Origin: Brachypterus glaber
Taxonomy: Eukaryota > Arthropoda > Insecta > Coleoptera > Kateretidae
DNA length: 64,000 nucleotides
Direction of reading: 5' to 3'
Assembly: GCA_958510825.1 (NCBI GenBank)
Contig: OY294049.1
Location: 22,458,945-22,522,944 of the forward strand
Positions 1 to 55,959 of this stretch are shown here, piece after piece. The translations under genes were made by a program, and so were the position numbers. Positions within the stretch are counted from its first letter, which is position 1. Each line of letters starts with the position of its first letter. The notes under the pieces are model-generated. The model saw nothing but the letters and a program-made list of their open reading frames with translations, ran no database searches and had not been told where the DNA came from.

Positions 1-1170
1 TTGCATAAACCTGAAGTAAGAAACCAACCCGCATGCAAAAGCTGCCTTTTGGCATTTAATAAAGGGGATTATTCTATATCACAAAACATGAAAAACCAGT
101 ATAGGAAAAGTCCGGAAACAAACCCCAAGAGAGTTGACCTTTTAAAATTTTACTAAAAACAAGGTTTTTAACTAATAACTCTGGTACCCTTTGAGCTAGA
201 GCGCCGAATTTTCGATGTATACTGATATTAATAACGGCCATTAGTTTATGTTAATATATTTTTCTGAATCTACCCATAGGCGTGCCTCTAAGTACAACTT
301 GTAAGGCTTTCCATATTTTTGACTCAGACTTTTTAGTGTGTATTTTTTTGGATTTTTTGTAAAAATATGGATTACTTAAGTAAAAATACATAAAAAATGT
401 AATATAGTTTAACACTGTATTAGCAACAGTTTACAAAAAATGCGATTAAGAGGAAGTAACATTTTGTGCCACCAAAAATGTTACTCCTTTAATATTTTAG
501 GTGTTTTGGTAAACCTAACTTGTTTGCTTGGTGTTAAGTGAAAAATCGCCCTAAAGCATTAAAATTATTTTGTTGCTTTCTTTGTTCCCCATTCAATATG
601 TCCATCTTCGAAGGGACGTAGCTCTTTTAGCGCTTATTTCCGGACATATGTTCCTATGTTGGTTTTCATGTTTTGTGATGTTGATTCATCCCCTTTGTTT
701 ATTGCCAAAAGACTGCAAACTCCGAGTATAATAAACGGATATATTTATAATATAATCCCTATTTTGTTACTTTTATTATGTAATGTATGCTATTTAAAAA
801 GATTAGGTAGGTACTGTTCAATGGATGGAAAATAAACGTGGATATATTTATTAAAAACTTTAATCCGTTGATAAATAACGGCTATAAACGTGCATGATAT
901 TTTGGACAGACACTTATTTAGATGTATGAAAGCATTTGTTTGCTTGCGCTAGCATTTTTAAAATAATAGAACATTATTAATGACCGGTGCAAATTGATAC
1001 TAAAATAACACTATGCTTCAAAATTTTTGTATTTTTGTACAATTCCACCCAAGATGACTTAACTTAAAAAGTCATCTTGGTTCCACCTTAGGTATTTGGG
1101 AGAGTTGAAAATAACTTACTTTCCAAGAAAAAACCCTTAAGAAAAAACCTTAAATTTTAATTTTGGTTCT
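1..1170. other. gene-free AT-rich DNA
   Basis: I see no credible coding exon or RNA gene. The block around 340-520 shares an inverted match with 45880-46020 (a segment reading GTAACATTTTGTGCCACC here and its complement there), so part of it is a dispersed repeat. A 12-bp hairpin (arms 1049-1060 and 1069-1080) is present. Confidence 0.6.
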
Positions 1171-7690: not shown

Positions 7691-7915
7691 TACCCAAAAA
7701 CTTATAATTCAACTATTTTTATAGAAATACAGTCATTAGAAAAATGCGTGCTTCAAAGGGTTAAATATAGTTCTTTTAATGAAAACAAATATGTCCTAAA
7801 TATATGGTTTTTGTTGGATAAGATATTATTTTAGATTTTAAGCTTTCACGGCTATTAAGATATAAAGAACTTTCACTTTCGGGTTTAGACCGTGTTAATG
7901 GATTTTCACTTTCCG

Positions 7916-7952
7916 ACGTTTCGTCTCTTACTACTAGAGACATCTTCAGGGA
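7916..7952 (-). ncRNA. hammerhead-like hairpin of the Penelope end (left copy)
   Basis: Reverse complement of the motif at 10102-10136: CTGAAGA, one extra U, a 6-bp stem GTCTCT/AGAGAC, then GAAACGTC. It resembles a hammerhead core, but there is an extra base before stem II and no loop for stem III. See the right-hand copy. Confidence 0.4.
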
Positions 7953-7992
7953 TTAATCTGAAACTAAGTTTCGAATCAACTTGTGTCACTAT

Positions 7993-8787
7993 TTATGACG
8001 AGTTGTGGTTATTCACCCGTGACGAGGTTTTTCCTATCAAAGACTTCCATATTGCAGGTAAGTGGTAACCAGTGTCCCGATTGATATTGTTAGGATGCTT
8101 GATGATTTCTATCGATTCCCGTATCTTCCTTGGCATTTTTCTGTTTTCTGTTAATATTTGTTTTGTTTCAGACAAATTGATTTTATGACCTGTTTCATGT
8201 ACATGTTCGGCTACTGCCGATAAGGAAATTTGTTTCTTTCTTATATTGCGCTCATGCTCTTGAAGTCTTGTAGAAATTTTTCTCTTAGTTTCACCTATGT
8301 AAACCGTACCACAGGAGCAGGGTATTTTATATACGCCTTCTGAACTCAGGGGTATTTTGTCTTTTGTTGAAGTCAAACATTGACCTAATTTTTGGTTGGA
8401 CCGAAATATAGGCTTAATATTTGACTTCTTCAAAAGTTTACCTATTTTATCCGTGATACCGCTTACATAGGGAAGTATAACTTGTGTCTGTCTGTCATTG
8501 TCACTATTATCCTGTTGTTTGGGTCTGGGATTTCTGTATTTGTATATGGTCTTATTAATGTCTTTTTTGGTATAACCGTTCATGGTCAAGGCTTTGGTTA
8601 GTTTAAGGAGTTCTGTGTCTAAGGAATTCTTGTCTGAAATCATGAAAGCCCTATGAACAAGTGAATTAACTACCGAGCGTTTTTGAGAGGGATGGTGGTG
8701 TGAAAATGCGTTTAGGTATCTGTCAGTGTGGGTTTTCTTCCTGTATACCGAGTGTCCTATTGAGCCATTTTTCGTTTTGTAAACCAA
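7993..8787 (-). CDS. Penelope-like protein, C-terminal part with GIY-YIG endonuclease (inverted copy)
   Basis: A 264-codon frame covering the end of the reverse-transcriptase region and the complete endonuclease. The first ~140 residues hold the linker/thumb part (SHHHPSQKRSVVNSLVHRAF). The GIY-YIG nuclease follows, with YKIPCSCGTVYIGETKRKI, the R...EH signature and a late KHPNNINRDTG block. The nuclease of this family nicks target DNA for target-primed insertion. The upstream reverse transcriptase is missing in this orientation because the inverted copy stops near 8790, so the frame's apparent start is not native. It differs from the plus-strand copy by a few substitutions and retains a segment (YKTKNGSIGHSVYRKK) that the plus-strand copy has lost. 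Confidence 0.85.
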   Translation of the reverse strand: MVYKTKNGSIGHSVYRKKTHTDRYLNAFSHHHPSQKRSVVNSLVHRAFMISDKNSLDTELLKLTKALTMNGYTKKDINKTIYKYRNPRPKQQDNSDNDRQTQVILPYVSGITDKIGKLLKKSNIKPIFRSNQKLGQCLTSTKDKIPLSSEGVYKIPCSCGTVYIGETKRKISTRLQEHERNIRKKQISLSAVAEHVHETGHKINLSETKQILTENRKMPRKIRESIEIIKHPNNINRDTGYHLPAIWKSLIGKTSSRVNNHNSS

Positions 8788-8799
8788 AACGTCCCTTAC

Positions 8800-10052
8800 A
8801 CCTCTTACACCTTACACCTCTTGAAATTTATAATCTAACCCCCCGAGACTCCCGCGTACCAAAATTATATGGTTTACCTAAAATTCACAAGGACGGTGCC
8901 CCTCTTAGACCAATTGTCAGCACAATAGGTTCCCCTACGTGTAAACTTGCCAAACACCTTGCCCAAATCTTAAATCAGTTAGTTGGAAAAACGAGGTCTT
9001 ATGTAAAAAATTCCACACACTTTGTACAAACCTTATCGACAGTGACCCTGGACCCCTCGGACATAATGGTTAGTTTCGACGTAGAATCTCTATTTACTAA
9101 CGTTCCCGTTCCCGATACAATAAATATTATACGAGACCTACTTACAACTGAAAATCTTGACCCTAAGTTATGTAAATTATTTGAAGCTTGTCTGACATCT
9201 ACATGAACAAGTGTCAGGCGCCGCAATGGGATCCCCATTATCACCCCCTGCGGCCAATGCTTTCATGGAATACTTCGAGAATAAAGCTATTGAGTCATTT
9301 CCATTAAAACCTAAAATTTGGCGCAGATACGTAGACGATGTATATGCTATTTGGCCCCATGGCATACCTAAACGCATTTTCACACCACCATCCCTCTCAA
9401 AAACGCTCGGTAGTTAATTCACTTGTTCATAGGGCTTTCATGATTTCAGACAAGAATTCCTTAGACATAGAACTCCTTAAACTAACCAAAGCCTTGACCA
9501 TGAACGGTTATACCAAAAAAGACAATAAGACCATATAAAAATACAGAAATCCCAGACAGACAGACACAAGTTATACTTCCCTATGTAAGCGGTATCACGG
9601 ATAAAATAGGTAAACTTTTGAAGAAGTCAAATATTAAGCCTATATTTCGGTCCAACCAAAAATTAGGTCAATTTTTGACTTCAACAAAAGACAAAATACC
9701 CCTGAGTTCAGAAGGCGTATATAAAATACCCTGCTCCTGTGGTACGGTTTACATAGGTGAAACTAAGAGAAAAATTTCTACAAGACTTCAAGAGCATGAG
9801 CGCAATATAAGAAAGAAACAAATTTCCTTATCGGCAGTAGCCGAACATGTACATGAAACAGGTCATAAAATCAATTTGTCTGAAACAAAACAAATATTAA
9901 CAGAAAACAGAAAAATGCCAAGGAAGATACGGGAATCGATAGAAATCATCAAGCATCCTAACAATGTCAATCGGGACACTGGTTACCACTTACCTGCAAT
10001 ATGGAAGTCTTTGATAGGAAAAACCTCGTCACGGGTGAATAACCACAACTAG
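8800..10052 (+). pseudogene. Penelope-like reverse transcriptase/GIY-YIG protein, broken
   Basis: 5'-truncated copy starting inside the reverse-transcriptase fingers. Landmarks in order: LYGLPKIHKDGAPLRPIVS, motif A FDVESLFTNVPV (about 9072-9110), GAAMGSPLSPPAAN (about 9215-9256), RRYVDDVYAIW with the catalytic YVDD (about 9322-9354), then the linker and the GIY-YIG domain (about 9700-10052, YIGETKRKI). Damage: a stop and small deletion near 9203-9210, between motif A and the GAAMGS block; a frame change with loss of ~30 or more codons near 9360-9375; an in-frame stop near 9536; and a further deletion near 9555. The catalytic residues survive but the protein cannot be made in one piece. Confidence 0.88.
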
Positions 10053-10101
10053 TCATAAATAGTGACACAAGTTGATTCGAAACTTAGTTTCAGATTAATC
10101 C

Positions 10102-10136
10102 CTGAAGATGTCTCTAGTAGTAAGAGACGAAACGTC
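10102..10136 (+). ncRNA. hammerhead-like hairpin at the Penelope 3' end
   Basis: Sequence order: CTGAAGA (the CUGANGA core pattern), an extra U, stem GTCTCT with loop AGTAGTA and AGAGAC, then GAA ACGTC. A 3-bp stem I (UCC/GGA) flanks it. Stem III has only AC/GU with no loop bases, so a monomer could not fold canonically; a dimer could. Hammerhead motifs have been described in Penelope-like elements, so this is a reasonable but unproven reading. The motif is repeated in inverted orientation at the left end. Confidence 0.45.
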
Positions 10137-10202
10137 GGAAAGTGAAAATTCATTAACACGGTCTAAACCCGAAAGTGAAAGTTCTTTATAAGATATTATT
10201 TT

Positions 10203-10746: not shown

Positions 10747-11297
10747 GGCAGACTAACATCTCTACTCTAAATTTCTCTACTCCCTAACATCCCTACTCTA
10801 TAACATCCCTACTCCACCACAACTCTACTCCGTAATATCTCTACTCCATAACATCTCTACTCCGTAACAACTCTACTCCACACTATATGCACTTTATTAG
10901 CCACTTAATAATAAATGAGCAGTTCAAAGAACAAAGAATCTTCTTCTTCTAGATTATTTTATTTTTTTCCTAGAAAACGTTTATCTTTAAATGTAAATCT
11001 AGAACAATCATAAATGAATTATTCTAAAAGCAACAATGACCGCGTACTCTTAACATGCACTAATATGTAAGTAATTAATAAACTGAATTCATTTTTGACA
11101 GTGACTTAGCATGACAAATATTCTTTTGAGTTAAGACAAGTGGCTAATCGAGTGTCTATAGTGTGGAGTAGAGTTGTTACGGAGTAGAGATGTTATGGAG
11201 TAGAGATGTTACGGAGTAGAGTTGTTGTGGAGTAGGGATGTTATGGAGTAGAGATGTTAGGGAGTAGAGAAATTTAGAGTAGAGATATTAGTCTGCC
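10747..11297. mobile_element. 551-bp non-autonomous DNA transposon with satellite-like TIRs
   Basis: Flanked by an exact 8-bp target-site duplication GCACGGAC (10739-10746 and 11298-11305). Inverted repeats of about 145 bp begin GGCAGACTAA and consist of about eight imperfect copies of a ~15-bp motif, CTCTACTCC(G/A)TAACAT. The ~265-bp centre has no open frame of note. An 8-bp duplication fits hAT, Merlin or P-type transposases; the terminal GG resembles Merlin more than hAT. I cannot assign the superfamily with certainty. Confidence 0.88.
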
Positions 11298-16041: not shown

Positions 16042-16110
16042 ATCTGGTAGATGGCGCACATGTATACATCAATCTAACAACGTTACTTCTAAAGTAAATA
16101 AAGTCTGAAA
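16042..16110 (+). repeat. diverged fragment of the ribozyme-bearing 354-bp unit
   Basis: The block AGATGGCGCACATGTATACATC followed by AATCTAA and AAATAAAGTCTGAAAA matches the unit's AGATGGCGCACAAGTCTACATC...AGTAAAGTCTAAAAA at 35825-35895. The hammerhead-bearing part that should follow is absent; a fold-back begins at 16127 instead. AATAGATTGATGGAATA of the same unit reappears just beyond the fold-back, at about 16761. Confidence 0.55.
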
Positions 16111-16126
16111 ATTATTCTCAATTTCT

Positions 16127-16748: not shown

Positions 16749-17832
16749 TGTTATTGGAAAAATAGATTGATGGAATATTTAATTAATATTTTTTTAATTT
16801 ACAACGTATTTTTTCCTCTGCAAATGAAAATCGCTATGTTGCGAGTTAACTTTTATGTGTAAGCGAATTATACGGTTATATTTGACAATTAAACCTGAAA
16901 TTAAATTTTAATTAAACGGAAAAAATCTCATTTGATATATGAGCTTTATTTTAATAAAAAAAAATAATAGGTATCTTTTTATTACATTTGCTATAGCTGC
17001 AGTTATTCATGAATAGTTCAGTTAGGTTTCATTTTTAAATAGACTTTTTTTATACTTTGATAATCCTAAAAAATCCTCATCGATAATTAAACCTTATAAG
17101 TTATAATTTCACTGTAAAAAGTAAACTGAATATTAATTTTTTCACTACCAGCCTAAAACCACATCTTTATTACTGTTCTTTTCATTGGTAGAAATATTAT
17201 TTCTCTACCTATGACGTCAGAGGTTCTAAAAATAATAAAATTGCACCATAGTTAATAATGAATTTTTATTCAGCTGTTTTGGCATCTGACGTTTCACTTA
17301 ATTATTAAATCACATTGCTATTTACAAGTGTCTTTAGGCACCAAATTTATTTATTGCATGATAAATTAAAAAATATTAACTAAATTAGTACCTATAAAAC
17401 ATGTTTTACAAAAAACACTTCGAAAAGTGAAAATCATTGGCCTATCATATTCAACCATAGATTATACAACCCATATATTATCGTAAGGATCATAGATTAC
17501 TAGAGGTACAACCCCCATATATTGATTTTTGAGACAATAGATTCTCCCTCACAGTTTTCGCCTGTCCCCTTATTTCTGGGGGAGTACCAGAATCATCACT
17601 TTGCATTTCACTTTCCATTTTTATATATTTTATTACACTTAACACGGAAATACTTTCTAACTTAATAATTTTAGCAGATCACCAGAAAATTTCTGCCAGA
17701 AATGTCAAGTTATTCATTTGTTTTTTTAATGGCCGCGAACGGCCAGCGTGATATTTTAAATTTATAACCTTTTTCATTAAATTTTAGTAAAAAAATAAAT
17801 AAATAGCTAATTAATTGTACTGGTAGTGAAAA
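16749..17832. other. gene-free DNA
   Basis: Nothing recognised apart from AATAGATTGATGGAATA at 16761 (shared with the 354-bp unit) and a TTTTTTCACTACCAGC block near 17142 that is complementary to GCTGG-like TACTGGTAGTGAAAAAA at 17819-17834, suggesting the outer ends of a ~700-bp inverted-repeat element. Confidence 0.4.
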
Positions 17833-18131: not shown

Positions 18132-18436
18132 GTTTTAATTTGACGCTCGGATAATGCCGGATAAGCCGGATAATCAAGATAAATCTAATCGTTTTAACGC
18201 AATTTCACTTAAAACCGGCTTAATTTGGTTCTAATACCAACCAAATTTTTAGAAAATGATCGGACAACTCGGATAAGTCGGATAACTTGATTAAGGGGTC
18301 ACTCAAATATTACGGCAGGCTAAAAGTCTTTTAAATGCCTCTAAACTTGATTCTGTGGACCTGCAATATTAAAATACCAAGAGAAAATTATAAAATTTGT
18401 GATTATACCATAAGGCGTTATTTGATTATTACTTAA

Positions 18437-18514
18437 CGATGATTAGAAAATAGATTGATGGAATAATAAATTAATATTTTTATAATTTTGTTTAAAATTA
18501 AAAATTTCTGTCCT
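18437..18514 (+). repeat. 78-bp fragment of the 354-bp ribozyme-bearing unit
   Basis: From GATGATTAGAAAATAG through AAATTTCTGTCCTTA the sequence is essentially identical to unit positions 35976-36056, starting just after the ribozyme's stem I. CTTAACG stands on both sides and could be a short target-site duplication. The 3' limit (TTTCTGTCCTTA) is the same as the limit of the inverted piece at 35528. Confidence 0.75.
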
Positions 18515-19278
18515 TAACGCTTAAAGTTTTATAAAGATTTTATTTGGTATTTCGTTTAAAATAAGGTTGATTGGACTCTTGGTCGCTGAAATAAAAATAC
18601 TACTAAATTTATTTTTTAGAAATTTATATTTAAGATGATAACGCCACAACGCACTAATAGTGCACTAATAGAGACAGAAGTCGGTTCATTTTTTTTGCGA
18701 AAAGTTTTTATTCATAGAAATATTTATTTCTAAGTACTATTTTCTAACTTTTAGTTTCTGAGATATGCAAACAAAGAAATAATTACTATAAGCAAGTACA
18801 CAATATCCAGGTCCAATGGCTCAAAGATTTGTATATCCGCAAGCATGTTAAGTACTTAAATCAAATTTTTGTGCTTGATTACAGTTGAATGCGAAGACCA
18901 ATAGGTTAAATTTGAATCACGTAAAAGTACTTGGTTTGAATAATAAAATTTCTTCTGAGATTAAAAGTAACTTAAATGAAAGATAGCAGGCATATATTAA
19001 TAATGGGATTATATCCGAGCAGGTTAACATCTAATTCAAATCCTAAAACGCCGCGACGCCGCACCCAGCTAAAAAATCCCAAAAAAAAAACGGAAAAAAA
19101 TCATAAAGCGTCGAATGTTGAATATTTATAAACCTTATAGTGTCCTCTAAATGATTTCAATACACTTTTTCAAACATTTTTTCGACCTCGGGAAAAAATT
19201 AATTTAAGGGGCACATTGCATATACATATCTTAATTTTCTTTACGACTGTATTTTTTAAATTTTAATATATAGTACAA
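18515..19278. other. gene-free DNA
   Basis: No gene, RNA or clear repeat recognised between the unit fragment and the 3' end of the LINE. Confidence 0.5.
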
Positions 19279-19840
19279 ATATAATAATAATAATAATAAT
19301 AATAATATTTATTGCAGAAAGTTTACAAACATAAAGCATTTGCAATAAATATGCAAATTTTACACTTAAATGTAGCTAGACATTTGTATGTGTAATTAAC
19401 AAATTTTACATTATCTATAAAATTAATAATAATAATTATAAAAACAACAATAATAATATCTAATAATAAATCCAATAATAATATCCGTATCTAATATTAA
19501 TAACCAAACCCAAAAGGCTAACAATCTATAAATATATACACACACACATACATATACATACAAATAAATATTTTTGTTTTTTTTTTTTTTTTTTTTTTTT
19601 TATTTATTTAATTTTTTTAAGGTAAGTATTTTAAAAGTTAATTTTTAGCTTAAAAATAGAGGTAAGTATTTAAAGAAGAAGGTAATTAAGTTTATGTATA
19701 ATAATAATATAATAATAGTAAATATCATTATATATGTATTTTTTGTTTTAGGTATGGACCAGTTATATAATAAAGTCTATATGTAATAGATCGTAAGTAT
19801 TTGAAATAGAATTTAATTAATTAGTATACTATTTTATGTG

Positions 19841-21889
19841 TTAATTATTTTTTATATCAATTTTTCCAGTTATAAATTCTCTAGAAAGCTGTAATATATA
19901 GTTTTTGCACACTTTTTTAAACAAAATGATGCCGGACACGTTTTTTATGTTTGCAGGTAATTGGTTATAAACCCTTGGTCCTAAGAACTTGCTACTCCTT
20001 TGACCTATGGTCTTACAAACTTTTGGAACAGGTAAGTTCATATTTTGTCTAGTATTGGTGATTCTATGTTTTTGTTTTTCAGAATGCGTGTATGTACATA
20101 GGGACAAATAATATAACTGTCTGCAGTCCATTTTACCAGAGAGCTTGAACAATTCGTCAGTTGGGTAAGTATACGGGACATTGTGTATAATTTTAAGAAT
20201 CCTTTTTTGTGAGACTTCAAGATCTTCTATATGGTTTCTATAAACCCCTCCCCAGCCCAAGATACCATATCTCAAATGGGTTTCTACTAGTGCATTGTAT
20301 ACAGTATTTAACTGCCTTTCATTAAGGATTTGCTGTAATATTTTGAAATATGGTATGAGGCATCTTATTTTTTTAGTTATTTGTTGCACTTGCAGATCCC
20401 ATTTGAGATGTTTATCAATTGTAAGGCCTAGAAATTTAGTTGATGTTGCTGAGCTTATGGAAAAATTTTCAAATGTACTGCGAAAGTTGAGCAGACTATA
20501 TTCTGGTAGACTATTGGCATATGAACCAAACGCCATGAATACAGTCTTATCAACGTTCAAAGTTAATAAGTTGTGATCAAACCATTCTTTAATTTTGACA
20601 AAATCTGATTCTATCATATCTTTAAGCAGTTGCCATGTTAGACCCTTATAAAAGATGGTAGTATCGTCCGCAAAACTAATTATTTTCCCTTTGCTGTTAA
20701 TTCTAAATAGGTTGTTCAAATAGAGAATAAATAATAATGGTCCTAAAATAGTGCCTTGGGGGACACCATATTCGGGGGACATCGGTGCACTGAATTTATT
20801 TCCAAGTTTTACAAACTGTTGTCTGTCTTTTAAATAGCTTTTCATTAACTTCAGAAGGGTTCCTCTAATTCCCAGATCTTCCAGAATGCTAATAAGCTTT
20901 TCATGACTGACCGTATCAAACGCTTTTGCAAGATCTAAAAAAATGCATATTGCTGGTATTCCTTTATCAATAGCGTCATACAGTTCAGTCACTAGTGAGA
21001 TTATAGCATCTTGGGTCGATTTTCCTTTCTGGAAACCAAATTGCTTTTCTGAAATTATTGAGTACTTTTTAATAAAGCCATCTAGTCTTATTTTTAAAAG
21101 GGTTTCAAAAATTTTTGTAAAGTTAGTGATAAGCGATATCGGCCTGTAATTAACTGGATCTAACCTGTCTCCTTTTTTATAAATTGGTACTATAACTGAA
21201 GTTTTAAAAGGTGTTGGGCAAATTCCTGTGATAAAAATGGTGTTGATTAGTTTTGAAAGAGGGTAAACAATATTTTGAGAAATATTTTTTATGGTTTCTG
21301 TACTTATGCAATCAAAACCAACAGACTTTTTGTTTTTTAACTTTTTTATGACTGATTGTATTTCTTTGGGACATGTGGGGAGTAAAAACATAGAGTTTGG
21401 CATTTTAAGTTTATTCTCCTTATAATTTTTATTCTTTTTAATTTTGTTTGCAAGTTTACTTCCCATTTCAATATAATGCTTATTAAAAGTGTCACACATT
21501 TTTTGTTTGTTAGTAATAATTAAATTTCCATCTCTTATTTCTTTTATCTCATTTTTATTTGATTTTGTATTTTTTAGTTCGTTAATTGTATCCCACATTC
21601 CTTTGTTGCTTGAGCTAGTATCTATTTTATTTTTATAGTAGCCATTTTTTGCTTTATTTATAAGTTGATTTAATTTATTTCTGTAAACATTGTATTCTTT
21701 TTTAATCTCTTCGTTTTGTGTTCGGTGATAATAATCCAATAGTTTGTCTCTGTAATTAATTGAAATAATAAGTCCTTGCGTAATCCAGGGTTTGCGTTTC
21801 CTCAACTCTTTTTTAATTTTTTTTTGGATAGTATTTAATTCTATATTTTCCTGTATTATATTTATAAATTTTTTTGTTGCAGTTTCCAC
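19841..21889 (-). pseudogene. LINE ORF2, linker plus reverse transcriptase
   Basis: About 682 codons. Residues 1-160 are a basic linker region. The reverse transcriptase follows: VNYRPISL (about 245), FLDLAKAFDTV (motif A, about 318), GVPQGTILGPLLF (about 377), FADDTTIFY (catalytic motif C, about 406), then the thumb and a C-terminal domain ending near residue 680. No RNase H or zinc-knuckle tail is visible. The frame continues upstream without a stop to about 21978, where an A8 homopolymer (plus-strand T8, 21985-21993) shifts it relative to the endonuclease frame. One base fewer would restore the reading frame, so this is probably a recent lesion or a sequencing error. The apparent first codon here is GTG inside the polyprotein, not a real start. 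Confidence 0.9.
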
Positions 21890-21977
21890 ATCGCCTTCAA
21901 GAATATGGTCCCATTTGACTTGGTTTAAATGCTGATTTAGTGTTTTATAATTAATTTGTTTAATATAATTTTTTGTA

Positions 21978-22364
21978 TTACTTTGTTTTTTTTGTTCCTT
22001 TTCCAGTATAATTTGTGTAGTAATGATCAGTAATATTGGTTTTTACGATTACAGGTAAAATATGTTCCTCTATGTTAATCCTAGTTTTAATAAAAATATG
22101 ATCAATACATGTGCCTTTTTCATTGTTATTTTTCCTTGTTATATTATTTATTAACGATTTAAAATTATGTTCCCCCATAATGTTCAAGTACTCACCAGAG
22201 GGACCAACAGGATCTAGGATATCTATATTTAGGTCACCTGTAAACATACAAACATCTGCTTTGAAAGTATTTGCATTTAGGTAGCTATCAAGATCTGACA
22301 AAAAGTTTGTTATTTTTATAGGATGTAGTCTATAAATACCTATTATATTAATTAGTTTGTTCAT
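21978..22364 (-). pseudogene. LINE ORF2, C-terminal half of the endonuclease
   Basis: Contains the diagnostic motifs of the exonuclease/endonuclease/phosphatase fold: GDLNIDIL with the catalytic Asp/Asn pair, CIDHIFI and TDHY with the catalytic His. It lies in a different frame from both neighbouring ORF2 pieces. The frame is open upstream of the first Met to about 22440, where a T5 run (A-run on the plus strand at 22440-22444) changes frame relative to the N-terminal half. Function in the intact element: nicking target DNA to prime reverse transcription. Confidence 0.85.
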
Positions 22365-22438
22365 AAACTCAATGTTTGTATTTATAATTTTGCAATCATT
22401 TATTTTATCAATTTTATGACTGTATCTAATTCCGTCTT

Positions 22439-22759
22439 TTAAAAACCATCATTCTGATTAAATGTGCCCCCGCTATATACCACACTGTACCCATTTAATT
22501 TAATATAATCAATGTTAACTTGGCGAGTTTCTGTGAGTACTATGCACTCAAATTTATCTGAAAATTGATCCAAAAAAATTTCTAATTCTGTTAAGTTCTT
22601 TTTAATACTTCTAATATTTAGTTGAAGTAACTTAAAATTTGTGTGTTTAGAATTTATTTCAAATACTTTATTACATTCATACGCGCTACTGACTGTTTCT
22701 GTAATAATATTATGAACATCAAAGTCTTTTATAAATGGATCCATGTAAAAAAAAAACAA
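22439..22759 (-). pseudogene. LINE ORF2, N-terminal half of the endonuclease
   Basis: Begins near MDPFIKDFD and contains LLQLNIRSIKKN (the N-terminal catalytic Asn block) and IVLTETR (the catalytic Glu). It terminates at a TAA created by a one-base difference in a homopolymer at about 22440-22446; the expected continuation is in the adjacent frame immediately downstream. The spacing from ORF1 is about 215 bases. Confidence 0.85.
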
Positions 22760-22974
22760 TTTAATTTAAACCTAATAATAATTTAAAAAAAATATATAAC
22801 TACCTTCTTTTTTTGTGTATGTTTAAGTATAAATATAAATTATTAAAATGAATAAGTTAAAACCTAGACCTAAAATTAAGAAAAAAACATAAAACACTAC
22901 AAGTTTAAAATAAAGATAAATAAAGATAAAAAGAGAGAGAGAGAGAAAAAAAAGAGATTTATAAAAATTACTAT

Positions 22975-23937
22975 TTAGTTTTTCTTCTTAGACCTTTTTG
23001 GATTTTTTTTGATTGGAGTTATCTCGCACCGTTTTTTCTTTTCTGACTTTTCCTCTTTCTTTTTTTTCTCTATCTCACTCTTTTCCTCTTTTTTTGTTTT
23101 TTTTGAACAATGTTCTTCGGATATATCTTCTTCCTCTTCCTCTTCCTTTTCAGATATTTCTTCTTCTGTGCCGCTACTTTCCGCTATTTCTAATTTTTCG
23201 TCTGTTTCACTATCGTTTCGTATACGTATTGGTGTTGGCGGGGCACTACTTATTAGTCTTTGTTGTGGTAGAAGTACACTAGGGGAGTCTGGGTGGGTGC
23301 TATTATTTGTTTCAAGAAGTTGCTTGTAAGTAAATGTTTCCCCGTTAACAATTAATGTATCCCTATATATTTTTGCTGTGTAGTTCTTTGCCTTTGCCTC
23401 TTTAAGATGTTTTACCAGTACTTTTTGAATTGCCCTTTGCTCTTCGGAGAGATCATGTGCCACACTGATTCCAGAGTTTTTTAATTTTGGTAATTGTTTA
23501 AAAATTTCTTGTTTCTTTAAGTTTGAAACAAACTTTATCATAATAGGTCGGTGTAGATTATTATTTGAATTTTTTCCCAGTCTATATATGTTATTTATGT
23601 CTTGTACTGTGACGGTAATGTTAAAATATTTTATCGTAAAATTATTCAAAGTTTCTATCAAGTTTTCATCTATTTCTTCCTTTAGGCCGTAAACTATAAA
23701 ATTATTTTCCCTGTACTTTGCCAGTTGTGTTTCCAAATTTTCAATTTTTTTATTTAAGTTTTGTTGCTTTGTTTCGATTTTTTTATTTTCTTCAAATAGT
23801 GTTTCGATATTTTGTGTCGTCTGATCTATCTTCAATGAGAGGTTGTCTATTTTTGTATTTAATTCAGTGTTTTGACTTTCAATTGAGCTTTGAATATGTT
23901 TTAAAATTTCGTATAAATCTTTATTTGTTGGTTCCAT
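22975..23937 (-). CDS. LINE ORF1 protein, coiled coil plus RRM-like domain
   Basis: An intact 320-codon frame. Residues about 8-75 form a long heptad coiled coil (repeated NxxLxxKI-type spacing). Residues about 80-165 resemble the RNA-recognition-type domain of L1/CR1 ORF1 proteins (NFIVYGLKEE, IYRLGK, RPIMIKF), followed by a CTD-like segment (AKIYRDTLIVNG). The last ~90 residues are a highly charged Ser/Glu/Lys-rich tail, encoded by the purine-rich stretch at 22980-23200. Such proteins bind element RNA as trimers and act as nucleic-acid chaperones. ATG at 23937 begins MEPTNKDL. The intact frame indicates a young copy. Confidence 0.85.
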   Translation of the reverse strand: MEPTNKDLYEILKHIQSSIESQNTELNTKIDNLSLKIDQTTQNIETLFEENKKIETKQQNLNKKIENLETQLAKYRENNFIVYGLKEEIDENLIETLNNFTIKYFNITVTVQDINNIYRLGKNSNNNLHRPIMIKFVSNLKKQEIFKQLPKLKNSGISVAHDLSEEQRAIQKVLVKHLKEAKAKNYTAKIYRDTLIVNGETFTYKQLLETNNSTHPDSPSVLLPQQRLISSAPPTPIRIRNDSETDEKLEIAESSGTEEEISEKEEEEEEDISEEHCSKKTKKEEKSEIEKKKKEEKSEKKKRCEITPIKKNPKRSKKKN

Positions 23938-24299
23938 ATTAGATTATTTGCATTTGGAACGTAGGGACTGAATGTAAACAAACTTATCTCCGCCCACTAA
24001 TACGGCTTTGTATCATGAATTTTTATAATTTTCTTCTTATAATTGTGTTTTTCACAGCGAAATATACAATATATATAAACTAGGACTTACTGCGAGTCTG
24101 GCTATATCCTTAAAATATTTAATTTTTTTGTTTTTTCCTCACAAAATTTCACTTTAGTTATGAGCGACACACACCACCGTACGATGGCCTCACTAAAATA
24201 AATTTGTGGATGAGGTATCAAATCATAAAAAGGTATTATCTCCATGTCATCTTGGTCTATTATGTAAATTTTTATACTGAATTTGAATCTGAATAAAAA

Positions 24300-35527: not shown

Positions 35528-35572
35528 AGGACAGAAATTTTTAGTTCAGTACCAAGAGTCAACTCTGCACGC
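35528..35572 (-). repeat. inverted 5' piece of the ribozyme-bearing unit
   Basis: Read on the minus strand it gives GCGTGCAGAGTTGACTC and TTGGTACTGA (the unit's sequence up to the hammerhead's first core residues), then jumps to TAAAAATTTCTGTCCT, which in the unit lies ~100 bases further on. It thus replaces the 5' side of the first hammerhead with its own complement. Such 5' inversions are typical of target-primed retroelement insertion. Confidence 0.8.
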
Positions 35573-35589
35573 CAGAAGAGGGCCAGAAG

Positions 35590-35625
35590 CCCGAAACTGT
35601 CAGTCTACCAATATCACTCTGTACG
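35590..35625 (+). ncRNA. broken hammerhead (first unit)
   Basis: Only the 3' half of the ribozyme (GCCC, GAAACTGTCAGTC, TACCAA) is in place. The 5' strand of stem I is missing and the core reads CAGAAGA instead of CTGAAGA, because of the inverted piece at 35528-35572. It cannot self-cleave as written. Confidence 0.75.
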
Positions 35626-35904
35626 ATGATTAGAAAATAGATTGATGGAATAATAAATTAATATTTTTATAATTTTGTTTAAAATTAAAAATTTCTGTCC
35701 TTACGAATTCTACGTCTAACCACCCGTTAGTGGTACTATGTGCTTGAGACACACAAGTCTTCAACTTGCTACCATTCAAAGTCTCCAGATTAGGAGAGGT
35801 ATGAGTAGTTGTCTACATCTAGAAATAGATGGCGCACAAGTCTACATCAATCTAATGGCTATATTCCTTTTGCGAGTAAAGTCTAAAAACGTTTTCTTAA
35901 TCAG

Positions 35905-35979
35905 CGTGCAGAGTTGACTCTTGGTACTGAAGAGGGCCAGAAGCCCGAAACTGTCAGTCTACCAATATCACTCTGTACG
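35905..35979 (+). ncRNA. type I hammerhead ribozyme (second unit)
   Basis: Self-cleaving RNA motif. Core: CTGAAGA (35927-35933, matching CUGANGA) and GAA (35947-35949). Stem II: GGGC 35934-35937 with GCCC 35943-35946, loop CAGAA, with the canonical G10.1-C11.1 pair. Stem III: ACT 35950-35952 with AGT 35956-35958, loop GTC; this includes the required A15.1-U16.1 pair. Cleavage site C17 is 35959, so cleavage is predicted between 35959 and 35960. Stem I: TTGGTA 35921-35926 with TACCAA 35960-35965, then an internal loop (7 and 5 bases), then nine more pairs (35905-35913 with 35971-35979, one G-U). The internal loop opposite a 5-base loop 2 is where natural hammerheads make their activating tertiary contact. 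Confidence 0.88.
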
Positions 35980-36258
35980 ATGATTAGAAAATAGATTGAT
36001 GGAATAATAAATTAATATTTTTATAATTTTGTTTAAAATTAAAAATTTCTGTCCTTACGAATTCTACGTCTAACCACCCGTTAGTGGTACTATGTGCTTG
36101 AGACACACAAGTCTTCAACTTGCTACCATTCAAAGTCTCCAGATTAGGAGAGGTATGAGTAGTTGTCTACATCTAGAAATAGATGGCGCACAAGTCTACA
36201 TCAATCTAATGACTATATTCCTTTTGCAAGTAAAGTCTAAAAACGTTTTCTTAATCAG

Positions 36259-36333
36259 CGTGCAGAGTTGACTCTTGGTACTGAAGAGGGCCAGAAGCCC
36301 GAAACTGTCAGTCTACCAATATCACTCTGTACG
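36259..36333 (+). ncRNA. type I hammerhead ribozyme (third unit)
   Basis: Identical over all 75 positions to the copy at 35905-35979, exactly 354 bases downstream. Predicted cleavage lies between 36313 and 36314. Cleavage at this and the previous site would release a unit-length 354-nt RNA with ends suited to circularisation. Confidence 0.88.
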
Positions 36334-36377
36334 ATGATTAGAAAATAGATTGATGGAATAATAAATATAAAGTTTAA

Positions 36378-53087: not shown

Positions 53088-55959
53088 ACACCGCCACACA
53101 AAATTAAAAAAGTTGACTCTCCGACGGACTTGTCTAGCAAATTCCTATGTATTTTGAGCCGCTGAATCCGAATCTGAGGTCAGAATTTGAAAGAGCTCTC
53201 ATTTTCAACATAACCTCAAAAAACGTGCTTTTCGCAACACTTCTGCTCAAAAATATCGGCCCACCTAAAAAAATACACATTTTTGAATGCAAATATCTCC
53301 AAAACTATTTAATGGATTTATTCGATCTTTTTTTTATTTTGAAGCTTGAACTTTTAGCTCTTACTTACTGGAATAAAAATTATCAAACATCTTTTTTTAT
53401 ACCGGCAGCAATGAAAAGTGCACAGCTATGTTTTTTTACTGCCTAATTAAATGGAAGTAATCTCTTTTTAAATTTTTTAATTTTCCTTTTCTCGTTTAGG
53501 AGATATAAGGTTTTTTCTAAAAATTTACATTTTTGCAAGTAACAAAAAAACTACGCAATGGATTTAATTGATTTTTTTTTAATTTGAAGCTTAAATCGTA
53601 AACTTTTATTTATTTAATTTAGGTTTCTGTTGGAAACATGTTTAAACTGAGTTTACATTGCTTAAATAGTCATGTTTTTTTTACTCGATCTTTTTTGTTG
53701 CAATTTAAACACAAACTCAAATCTTTCCATAAGTTTTAAAACTTATTCTAATAGCCACACTTATTGTGACTGATTCCGTCTTTTATTTTTTATCATAAGT
53801 CTTCTCATTTAGGAGAAATTATGTTTTTTTGGTAAATAAGGACTTTTTAAGTGGTGGGCTAGTGCCACCCCTGTAACTAACTTTTTTATGATTGACAAGA
53901 CTTGTCACTTATGTGACAATACTTTTTTAACTCGTTAAAATTTTATTTAATTGTATTATTTAAATGGAAACAAGTCCGGAAGTAGCTGCCCAAGCTGTAG
54001 CTCTGCTACAAGAAGGGCACAGTCAGCGTTATGTTGCTCAACAGTTAAATATTACGAGAGCAGCGGTAAGAAGAGTATTCCAACGTTTTGAGGAGACCGG
54101 TTCCTTTAGTCGACGCCAAGGAGCTGGCAGACATAGGTGCACGTCCGCTCGGGATGACCGATTTATCGAGCTTAATTCCCTGCGGAATCTTCGTCTAAAT
54201 TCAGTTAATTTGAGATCACGGCTTCAAGAAACAAGAGGTGTAGCAGTAAGTAGGTCCACTATTGGTCGAAGGCTTTTTGAAAGAAACCTTTGCTCTTATA
54301 AGGCCGCAACTGGACCTAAACTCACTGCTAACCATCGTCGTGCCAGGCTGCAGTTTGCAAGAAGACATTTAAACTGGGACAGAAACCAATGGGCAAAGGT
54401 TATGTTTTCTGATGAAACCAGGATATGTCTATTTGGGAATGATGCAAGACAGCGTGTCTACCGACGTCCTGGAGAACGTTATGCACAGACCTGCATTGCA
54501 GAAAAAGTTAATTATGGTGGTGGATAGTGCATGATATGGGGAGGTATATCATTGGAAGCTAAAACTGAATCCGTTTTTATTATAAGGGAAGAACGTGGAC
54601 GGCAAAGGCGAAGTCTTACAGCAAAAAGGTATGTCGAAGACATTTTGGAAGAGCACGTCGTACCTTACGCCGGATTTATAGGCGATGACTTTATTTACAT
54701 GCAAGACAATGCAAAGCCGCATACTGCAGCAAATGTCAGACGATACTTAAGAGATGTCGGTATCGACGTCTTAGACTGGCCAGCTAATACGTTTTTTTGT
54801 GTTTATAATTGTTATTAAATAATTTTAATAAAATTTAAAATTTGTTTATTGTTATTTTATTTGATAAAATATTTTGTTTAAAAAAAATTAAAAAGCAAAA
54901 AGACGTTAGAACTTGTTTTTGGAGTACCATTAGAGATTTAAACAGTTCGTTCGACATATATGCCTCAAAACGCAGTCTGAGCTGGGAACCAAAAAGTTGC
55001 TAACGCAGAAAACGTGTTAATTAAATGTATTTATTTAAGCTAAAGTTATAGAAGTGCAATAGATCTTTATATTCTATCGACGCTTTTCCGTCATATACAG
55101 TTTTACAGGGGTGGCACTAGCCCACTGATTAAAAAGTCACTTTTTCCGAAAAACTTTAATTTCTCCTAAATGAGAAGACTTATGATAAAAAATAAAAGAA
55201 GGAATCAGTCACAATAAGTGTGGCTTTTAGAATAAGTTTTAAAACTTATGGAAACATTTGAGTTTGTGGTTAAATTGCATCAAAAAAGATTGGGTAAAAA
55301 AAAACATGACTATTTAAGCAATGTAAACCCAGTTTAAACATGTTTGCACCAGAAACTTAAATTAAATAAATAAAAGTTAAGGACTTAAGCTTCAAATTAA
55401 AAAATAAATCAATTAAATCCACTGTGTAGTTTTTTTGTTATTTGCAAAAATGTTTATTTTCAGAAAAAACCGTATATCTCCTAAACGAGAAAAGGAAAAT
55501 TAAAAAGTTAAAAAAGAAATTACTCCCATTTAATTGGCCTATAAAATCAATTAATTAAATTGTAAAAAAATATGCAGTGGCAAACCGTGCGCATATCGAA
55601 AGAAGCAGTAAAAAAACATAGCTGTGTAATTTTCATTGCTGCCGGTTTAAAAAAAGATTTTTGATAATTTTTATTCCAGTAATTAAGAGCTAAAAGTTCA
55701 AGCTTTAAAATAAACAAAAAGGTCAAATAAATCTATTGAATAGTTTTGGAGTTATTAGCATTTGAAAATGTGTATTTTTTTAGGTGGGCCGATATTTTTG
55801 AGCAGAAGTGTATATGATATGTTTTTTTGGAGGTTATGTTGAAAACGGGAGCTAACTTTCAAATTCCGACCTCATTCGGATTCAGCGGCTCAAAATACAT
55901 AGGAATTTACTAGACAAGTCTGTCGGAGAGCCAACTTTTTAAATTTTGTGTGGCGGTGT
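53088..55959 (+). mobile_element. Tc1/mariner element with ~800-bp inverted repeats
   Basis: Begins ACACCGCCACACAAAATT and ends AATTTTGTGTGGCGGTGT, flanked by TA (53086-53087 and 55960-55961). The arms run from 53088 to about 53880 and from about 55106 to 55959; their inner ends are GGGCTAGTGCCACCCCTGTAA and its complement. The right arm carries a ~65-bp insertion (about 55540-55610) that the left lacks. Between the arms lies a damaged Tc1-type transposase. A TA target site and DDE transposase are diagnostic of the IS630-Tc1-mariner superfamily; arms this long are unusual for it. Confidence 0.9.
53964..54818 (+). pseudogene. Tc1-type transposase, one stop and C-terminal loss
   Basis: The frame reads through 284 codons apart from one TAG (54525-54527, codon 188) within GGG*CMIWGGI, where the family normally has GGGSVM. 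Residues about 1-115 form the bipartite helix-turn-helix DNA-binding region (LLQEGHSQRYVAQQLNI, VSRSTIGRRL). The catalytic domain has the first Asp in VMFSDETR (residue 150) and the second in YMQDNAKPHTA (residue 248). The sequence then runs LDWPA and loses similarity (NTFFCVYNCY), exactly where RSPDLNPIE with the third acidic residue is expected at about 283. So both a nonsense mutation and a 3' deletion inactivate it. The ATG at 53964 begins METSPEVAAQ, a natural start. Confidence 0.9.

Follow-up and report, generated by a model that had tools for sequence, protein, structure and literature searches.

The window, by which we mean the whole stretch of 64,000 nucleotides analyzed, holds at 35528–36365 an insertion of 838 bp that is flanked on both sides by 12-bp duplications (Table 1), and the score of this duplication was matched by 0.4% of flank pairs drawn from different copies. 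The insertion has a tandem period of 354 bp (TRF: 2.2 copies, 99% matches, 35575–36366), its GC content is 0.36, and it contains no ORF, with no stop-to-stop frame of at least 130 aa. The period and the near-identity of the units, the lack of coding capacity, and the 12-bp target-site duplication had been claimed in an earlier note on this DNA and are borne out here. The extent given there also stands. Two features had been overlooked, namely the inversion of the segment 35528–35572 and the two fixed ends described below.

Table 1 Features of the 838-bp insertion, of the Penelope-like element (PLE) copy, and of other sequences in the window (unit position 1 is the base directly after the ribozyme cut; RC, reverse complement)
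Feature	Position	Strand	Remarks
Left target-site duplication TATAAAGTTTAA	35516–35527		12-mer identical to right one
Inverted arm	35528–35572	−	RC of unit 97..~78 + RC of unit 326..299; ends outward at site B (+97)
Direct arm	35575–36365	+	2.2 copies of the 354-bp unit; ends outward at site A (+53)
Predicted type I hammerhead 1, complete	35900–35985	+	pairings checked; cut 35959/35960
Hammerhead 1, outer stem I	35909–35914/35970–35975	+	pairing checked
Hammerhead 1, inner stem I	35921–35926/35960–35965	+	pairing checked
Hammerhead 1, core CTGAAGA	35927–35933	+	read from sequence
Hammerhead 1, stem II	35934–35937/35943–35946	+	pairing checked
Hammerhead 1, GAAA	35947–35950	+	read from sequence
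Hammerhead 1, stem III	35950–35952/35956–35958	+	pairing checked
Monomer between cuts	35960–36313	+	354 bp
Predicted type I hammerhead 2, complete	36254–36339	+	86 nt identical to hammerhead 1; cut 36313/36314
Right target-site duplication TATAAAGTTTAA	36366–36377		12-mer identical to left one
Copy of candidate helper PLE family	7828–10190		broken RT and GIY-YIG frames; itself head-to-head
PLE inverted arm	7861–8719		matches 9364–10190 reversed; tail out to ~7828
PLE direct arm	ends at 10190		minimal hammerhead, cut after 10136
PLE duplication ATAAGATATT(ATTTT)	both sides of PLE		exact edges blurred by microhomology
Two arrays of 16-bp unit TAACATCTCTACTCCA	10754–10880 and 11164–11290		8 copies each; mutually inverted, facing
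Tc3-type transposase fragment	53964–54527	+

Each full unit appears to bear a type I hammerhead ribozyme, as the earlier note had proposed for every full unit junction; two such hammerheads were found, with core and stems legible in both. In the first unit, the ribozyme (from 35575) has no 5′ strand, as the sequence before it is inverted. The core was read against the hammerhead consensus CUGANGA..GAAA..UH. An 81-nt ribozyme stretch folds better than expected from its composition (z = −4.1, with none of 200 shuffles equally good), and its minimum-energy fold contains stems I and II, part of the core being paired in place of stem III. Rfam called no hammerhead in the window insertion, either at the gathering threshold or at E ≤ 10. 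Since Rfam is silent and the fold backs only stems I and II, the assignment rests on the reading of core and stems and on conservation across 123 genomic units, in which the worst core position is conserved at 91%.

We then consider the family in the assembly (648 Mb, 842 contigs), the transposons of which are insect-like. A ribozyme core pattern of 32 bases, with up to three mismatches allowed, matched 5982 times genome-wide (3017 + 2965), and the reversed control 0 times. The first 100 cores in map order, all on one contig, fall into 67 separate clusters (48 with just one core) spread across 12.8 Mb; all 10 clusters with cores on both strands are head-to-head and none is tail-to-tail, and the spacing between same-strand cores equals 354 in 18 of 23 cases. 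A sequence search with the retrozyme returned 244 matches (the best 40 of 1584 candidates scored), and we examined 40 copies, the window copy and L009–L047, picked by similarity to the window copy. Arrays are mostly short, the largest among the 40 having about 15 units (L014). A duplication accompanies 27 of these copies (length 9–18, mode 12): a score of at least 9 was reached by 28, from which L014 was discounted because its apparent duplication is unit sequence, and 13 copies, L014 among them, have no clear duplication. In an earlier scoring, a duplication score of 10 was reached by 25 of the 40 copies (L014 included) vs. 20 of 1560 flank pairs from different copies. The duplicated targets are AT-rich (0.82 vs. 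0.72 in the flanks), with the edges AA(C/T)^ and ^(R)TT.

The units within an array are also more alike than the family as a whole would predict. At nine sites with the minor allele in at least four loci, scored in 31 loci with at least two full units, mixed alleles occurred in 16 of 275 locus-by-site cells (permuted mean = 128, minimum = 91, 200 permutations), and L014, L027, and L042 were mixed at two or more of the nine sites. The units of one array therefore come largely from one monomer, as expected if a single circular RNA had been copied round and round; the same pattern could also arise if arrays were homogenized once inserted, or if the transcripts came from arrays that were homogeneous already.

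The ends of the insertions are not scattered. Head-to-head copies, with two outward-facing 3′ ends, account for 33 of the 40, the other seven not being head-to-head, and their outer ends as placed by BLAST fall at two sites downstream of the ribozyme cut: site A near +53 (..GGAATAATAAAT) and site B near +98 (..TTTCTGTCCTTA). With A defined as 45–75 and B as 85–107, bounds kept wide because BLAST ends may extend into the flanks, 26 copies are AB, two AA, and one BB, and four have one end elsewhere. AB in 26 of 29 classified copies would be improbable if the ends were independent at 1:1 (binomial P = 7.6 × 10^−6). As a check beyond copies picked by similarity, we took the five shortest of the 10 two-strand clusters in the position-ordered sample, and four were AB (L087–L090). 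Three of these (L087, L088, and L089) have duplications of 13, 14, and 17 bp, that of L089 with one mismatch; L090 has an 11-bp duplication with one mismatch, its duplication and end being placed by eye. The fifth (L086) is AA by the class bounds (59 and 71) and has no clear duplication. An 8-mer end scan of the retrozymes (18 of 40 AB) was set aside in favor of BLAST ends, since AT-rich sequence gave it spurious matches. Dispersed copies in mostly short arrays, the 27 duplications, and the fixed ends thus support what the earlier note had argued, namely that this is a retrozyme and an insertion rather than a satellite expanding in place. The 40 copies are not mainly long arrays without duplications, yet 13 of them lack a clear one.

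Several individual copies deserve mention. In L009, L012, and L020 the inner junction of the inverted arms lies inside the palindrome of hammerhead stem I (unit 1 vs. 287), and stem I complementarity may have guided the joining of the two cDNAs in these copies. An insertion at 2442–2816 of L053 consists of 4.2 copies of a 61-bp mini-unit (unit 337–354 + 1–43); one end lies at A (~50) and the other at B (97), the duplication reads ATAACTATGGTC (by eye), and the template was possibly a miniature or stuttered retrozyme. In the window, 81 bp at 18436–18516 are identical to unit 18–98 and stop at site B; this tiny additional copy shows no clear 12-bp duplication. Degenerate retrozyme-like pieces at 16048–16111 (78%) and 16759–16800 (93%) flank an apparent inverted-repeat element of ~650 bp (by eye).

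A PLE family resides in the same genome, with one copy in the window. A 741-aa open frame of this family (L050) matches PLE-type proteins, including LOC134299269 of Anolis carolinensis (46% over 97%), and its relatives, among the best 120 of 2692 matches, carry RVT_1, PF28514, and PF26215. Pfam returned only RVT_1, below cut-off, in one of three PLE pieces and nothing on the 741-aa frame, so that the identity of the family rests on the protein matches of this frame; a PDB sequence search gave only matches at E = 0.08 or worse. Frames without internal stop were found at 35 of 49 scored places (the best 49 of 4746 candidates). The PLE hammerhead is of the minimal PLE form (CTGAAGA..GAAACGTC) and cuts 26 nt past its start codon (29 nt when counted from the A of ATG).

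The PLE insertions are built like those of the retrozyme. In a DNA search, 21 of 37 clusters had both strands, and all 21 were head-to-head. Of 25 insertions with both ends, 22 were AB, two AA, and one BB by an 8-mer end scan, with site A mostly at +52 to +55 (..GTTCTTTATA) and site B mostly at +86/87 (..CTTAAAATCTAAAAT), +87 being where the scan stops; seven places with one end only or joined (L050, L052, L054, L056, L063, L071, and L076) were left out, L064 was dropped as a duplicate of L058, and L049, which is the window copy, was taken from the window. The cut position places site B at about nucleotide 115–116 of the ORF and site A at about 83, and because sequence runs past B into the frame in L084 and L085, site B of the PLE is internal to its RNA. 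Duplications were found in 20 of the 25 (mode 13; AT 0.86 vs. 0.71 in the flanks). One PLE insertion, L065, has two B ends and flanks that are also palindromic, which suggests a hairpin-type rearrangement. A PLE copy lies near the retrozyme in L014 and L039, each as a separate insertion, and no PLE pieces were found inside the 40 retrozyme insertions.

The two families thus share two adjacent start sites with a tail on one end only (26 of 33 head-to-head retrozymes and 22 of 25 PLEs). Site A lies 53 nt from the ribozyme cut in the retrozyme and 54 nt in the PLE, site B at +98 and +86/87, respectively, and duplication lengths are similar (mode 12 vs. 13, P = 0.056). The sequences themselves are not alike: around A and B the best local score was reached by 179 of 1000 shuffles, and for the whole unit by 262 of 500. 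The best match, TTAAAAT(CT/T)AAAA, stands at +73 in both, an offset also matched in 17 of 2000 shuffles, which, having been noticed post hoc, is only a lead. Unlike Penelope/Poseidon PLEs, the retrozyme is without an ORF, its hammerhead is complete instead of minimal, its unit measures 354 bp, and no homology to the resident family is detectable; neither an RT and GIY-YIG ORF nor PLE pLTR sequence was found in it, similarity downstream of the hammerhead not being significant.

Published accounts of PLEs describe a comparable anatomy. Penelope/Poseidon elements likewise have head-to-head arms, AT-rich targets, and a hammerhead 5′ of both start sites (PMC3846280, PMC11167929), and an optional 31-bp tail is reported on one of the inverted pLTRs (PMC3846280); short tails on one inverted end measure 31 bp and 30–40 bp in these accounts and 45 nt in the retrozyme (PMC3846280, PMC11167929). 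The duplications reported there are shorter, at 8–10 bp vs. a mode of 12 (PMC3846280, PMC11167929). For the Anolis PLE, the ribozyme is said to cut 26 bp past the start codon, and reverse transcription to begin at 111–118 bp into the ORF (PMC11167929), which is where site B of the resident PLE falls. The two-site tail signature is there called unique to PLEs and ascribed to reverse transcription from two internal RNA sites, and the motif cleaved most often, on either strand, is given as 5′-ATT-3′ (PMC11167929). The AA(C/T)^ and ^(R)TT edges of the AT-rich retrozyme targets resemble this ATT preference on both strands, whereas the left edge of the resident PLE differs: AA(C/T) stands there in 17 of 27 retrozymes vs. 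three of 20 resident PLEs (P = 0.001). This difference may come from microhomology with the PLE end (..TTTATA) or from a different PLE helper. The same study reports that top- and bottom-strand start sites are alike, that hammerhead mutants inserted as well, and that RNA truncated to ORF +20 continued to serve (PMC11167929), results that leave the one-A-one-B rule and a role of the hammerhead in insertion unexplained. We therefore propose as a landmark for the PLE machinery only the stretch after the hammerhead, not the hammerhead fold.

A helper from another PLE family, which would be a variant of PLE-type mobilization rather than an explanation exclusive of it, is possible but rather doubtful. 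It would accommodate the left-edge difference and the lack of sequence similarity to the resident PLE at A and B. All five PLE places examined as DNA, however, of 49 found by protein, belong to the resident family (98.4–99.3%), the geometry of which fits, and the edge difference may be microhomology.

Movement by a LINE with frequent twin priming, in which priming at the first nick uses one RNA site and priming at the second overhang an internal one, leaving a 5′ inversion, we consider improbable. Twin priming does yield head-to-head inversions in L1, and a LINE with RVT_1 (19841–22042) is present in the window, where 19841–23943 (− strand) comprises this LINE and a neighboring frame that may be its ORF1. 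Near the presumed 5′ end of the window LINE no duplication of at least 11 bp was found, one AT-rich 14-mer lying 2 kb beyond. The 15-bp duplications of Nematostella repeats have also been read as LINE-like (PMC4918200). A LINE would, however, have to invert 33 of 40 copies and start from two fixed sites, usually one per end, the tail signature called unique to PLEs. In a control of one LINE family (query 19500–20300, − strand; coordinates only), none of 40 scored places (13 with at least 94% identity, the others with 71–91%) had an opposite-strand neighbor, vs. the 21 of 37 PLE clusters.

In-place expansion of a satellite, or spread of the copies by way of DNA circles, would suit the tandem 354-bp units, the 13 copies without clear duplication, and the description of hammerhead repeats as satellite DNA in newts (PMC7229834) and as satellite-like in schistosomes (PMC8490949), but is very improbable given the dispersal of 100 cores into 67 clusters over 12.8 Mb (48 single), the duplications in 27 of 40 copies, the fixed ends, and a consistent head-to-head order that unequal exchange is not expected to give.

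The insertion belongs to a new family of non-autonomous animal retrozyme, probably mobilized by PLE machinery. PLE-type reverse transcription is indicated by the inverted arm together with the two fixed ends, and the insertions have the appearance of products of PLE machinery acting on circular RNA. In the known pathway of animal retrozymes, multimeric transcripts self-cleave at their hammerheads and the monomers are ligated into circles. From what the sequence offers (anatomy, the two sites, duplications, array homogeneity, and likeness to PLE anatomy), we infer the RNA, its circularity, and the action of the protein, as follows. Hammerhead self-cleavage of multimeric transcripts would release 354-nt monomers, and their ligation would give circles. 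A PLE protein, probably a dimer, would cut both strands of an AT-rich target ~12 bp apart, and each 3′ end would then serve as a primer on the retrozyme RNA, reverse transcription starting at a favored internal position. Usually one of the two ends would start at ~+53 (A) and its partner at ~+98 (B). Copying more than one round of the circle would give tandem units, the two first-strand cDNAs would be joined head to head, and fill-in of the staggered cut would produce the target duplication.

Among known retrozymes, the family resembles the animal non-LTR type, described as carrying one type I hammerhead in each unit of ~170–400 bp, forming short tandem arrays in thousands of copies, and being non-coding, with GC below 50% and duplications over 4 bp (PMC7229834); the unit of 354 bp, the dispersed cores, the absence of a frame of at least 130 aa, and the duplications (mode 12) all fall within this description. 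It differs in that direct tandem copies are described there, head-to-head arms with two fixed ends finding no mention in the available text (PMC7229834). Plant LTR retrozymes are likewise non-autonomous and hammerhead-bearing, with a circular RNA template proposed, but have type III hammerheads in LTRs and 4-bp duplications (PMC4918200). The literature searched, with subscription papers, preprints, and supplements outside its scope, did not describe any retrozyme as bearing the tail signature.

The enzyme that mobilizes animal retrozymes has been left open between LINEs and PLEs (Cervera & de la Peña 2020, PMC7229834), with PLEs named a strong candidate in 2020 on co-occurrence, hammerheads, and tandem form (PMC7229834), and a review of December 2024 still gives LINEs or PLEs (PMC11722881). 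The scars described here turn this question into a quantitative test, with two predicted cDNA starts on a 354-nt RNA, and a candidate helper PLE family with open reading frames sits in the same genome. By a small balance of probability, we suggest that animal retrozymes are parasites of PLEs: a dimeric RT-endonuclease, working from either side of a staggered break, would copy RNA circles made by the ribozyme, the two start sites would lie similarly far downstream of the hammerhead in both RNAs, and the stretch after the hammerhead would pass the foreign circle off as PLE RNA. Mobilization by PLEs, if true, would go some way toward accounting for the co-occurrence of PLEs and retrozymes and for the hammerheads that both carry, and the retrozyme would provide a minimal natural template for PLE biology.
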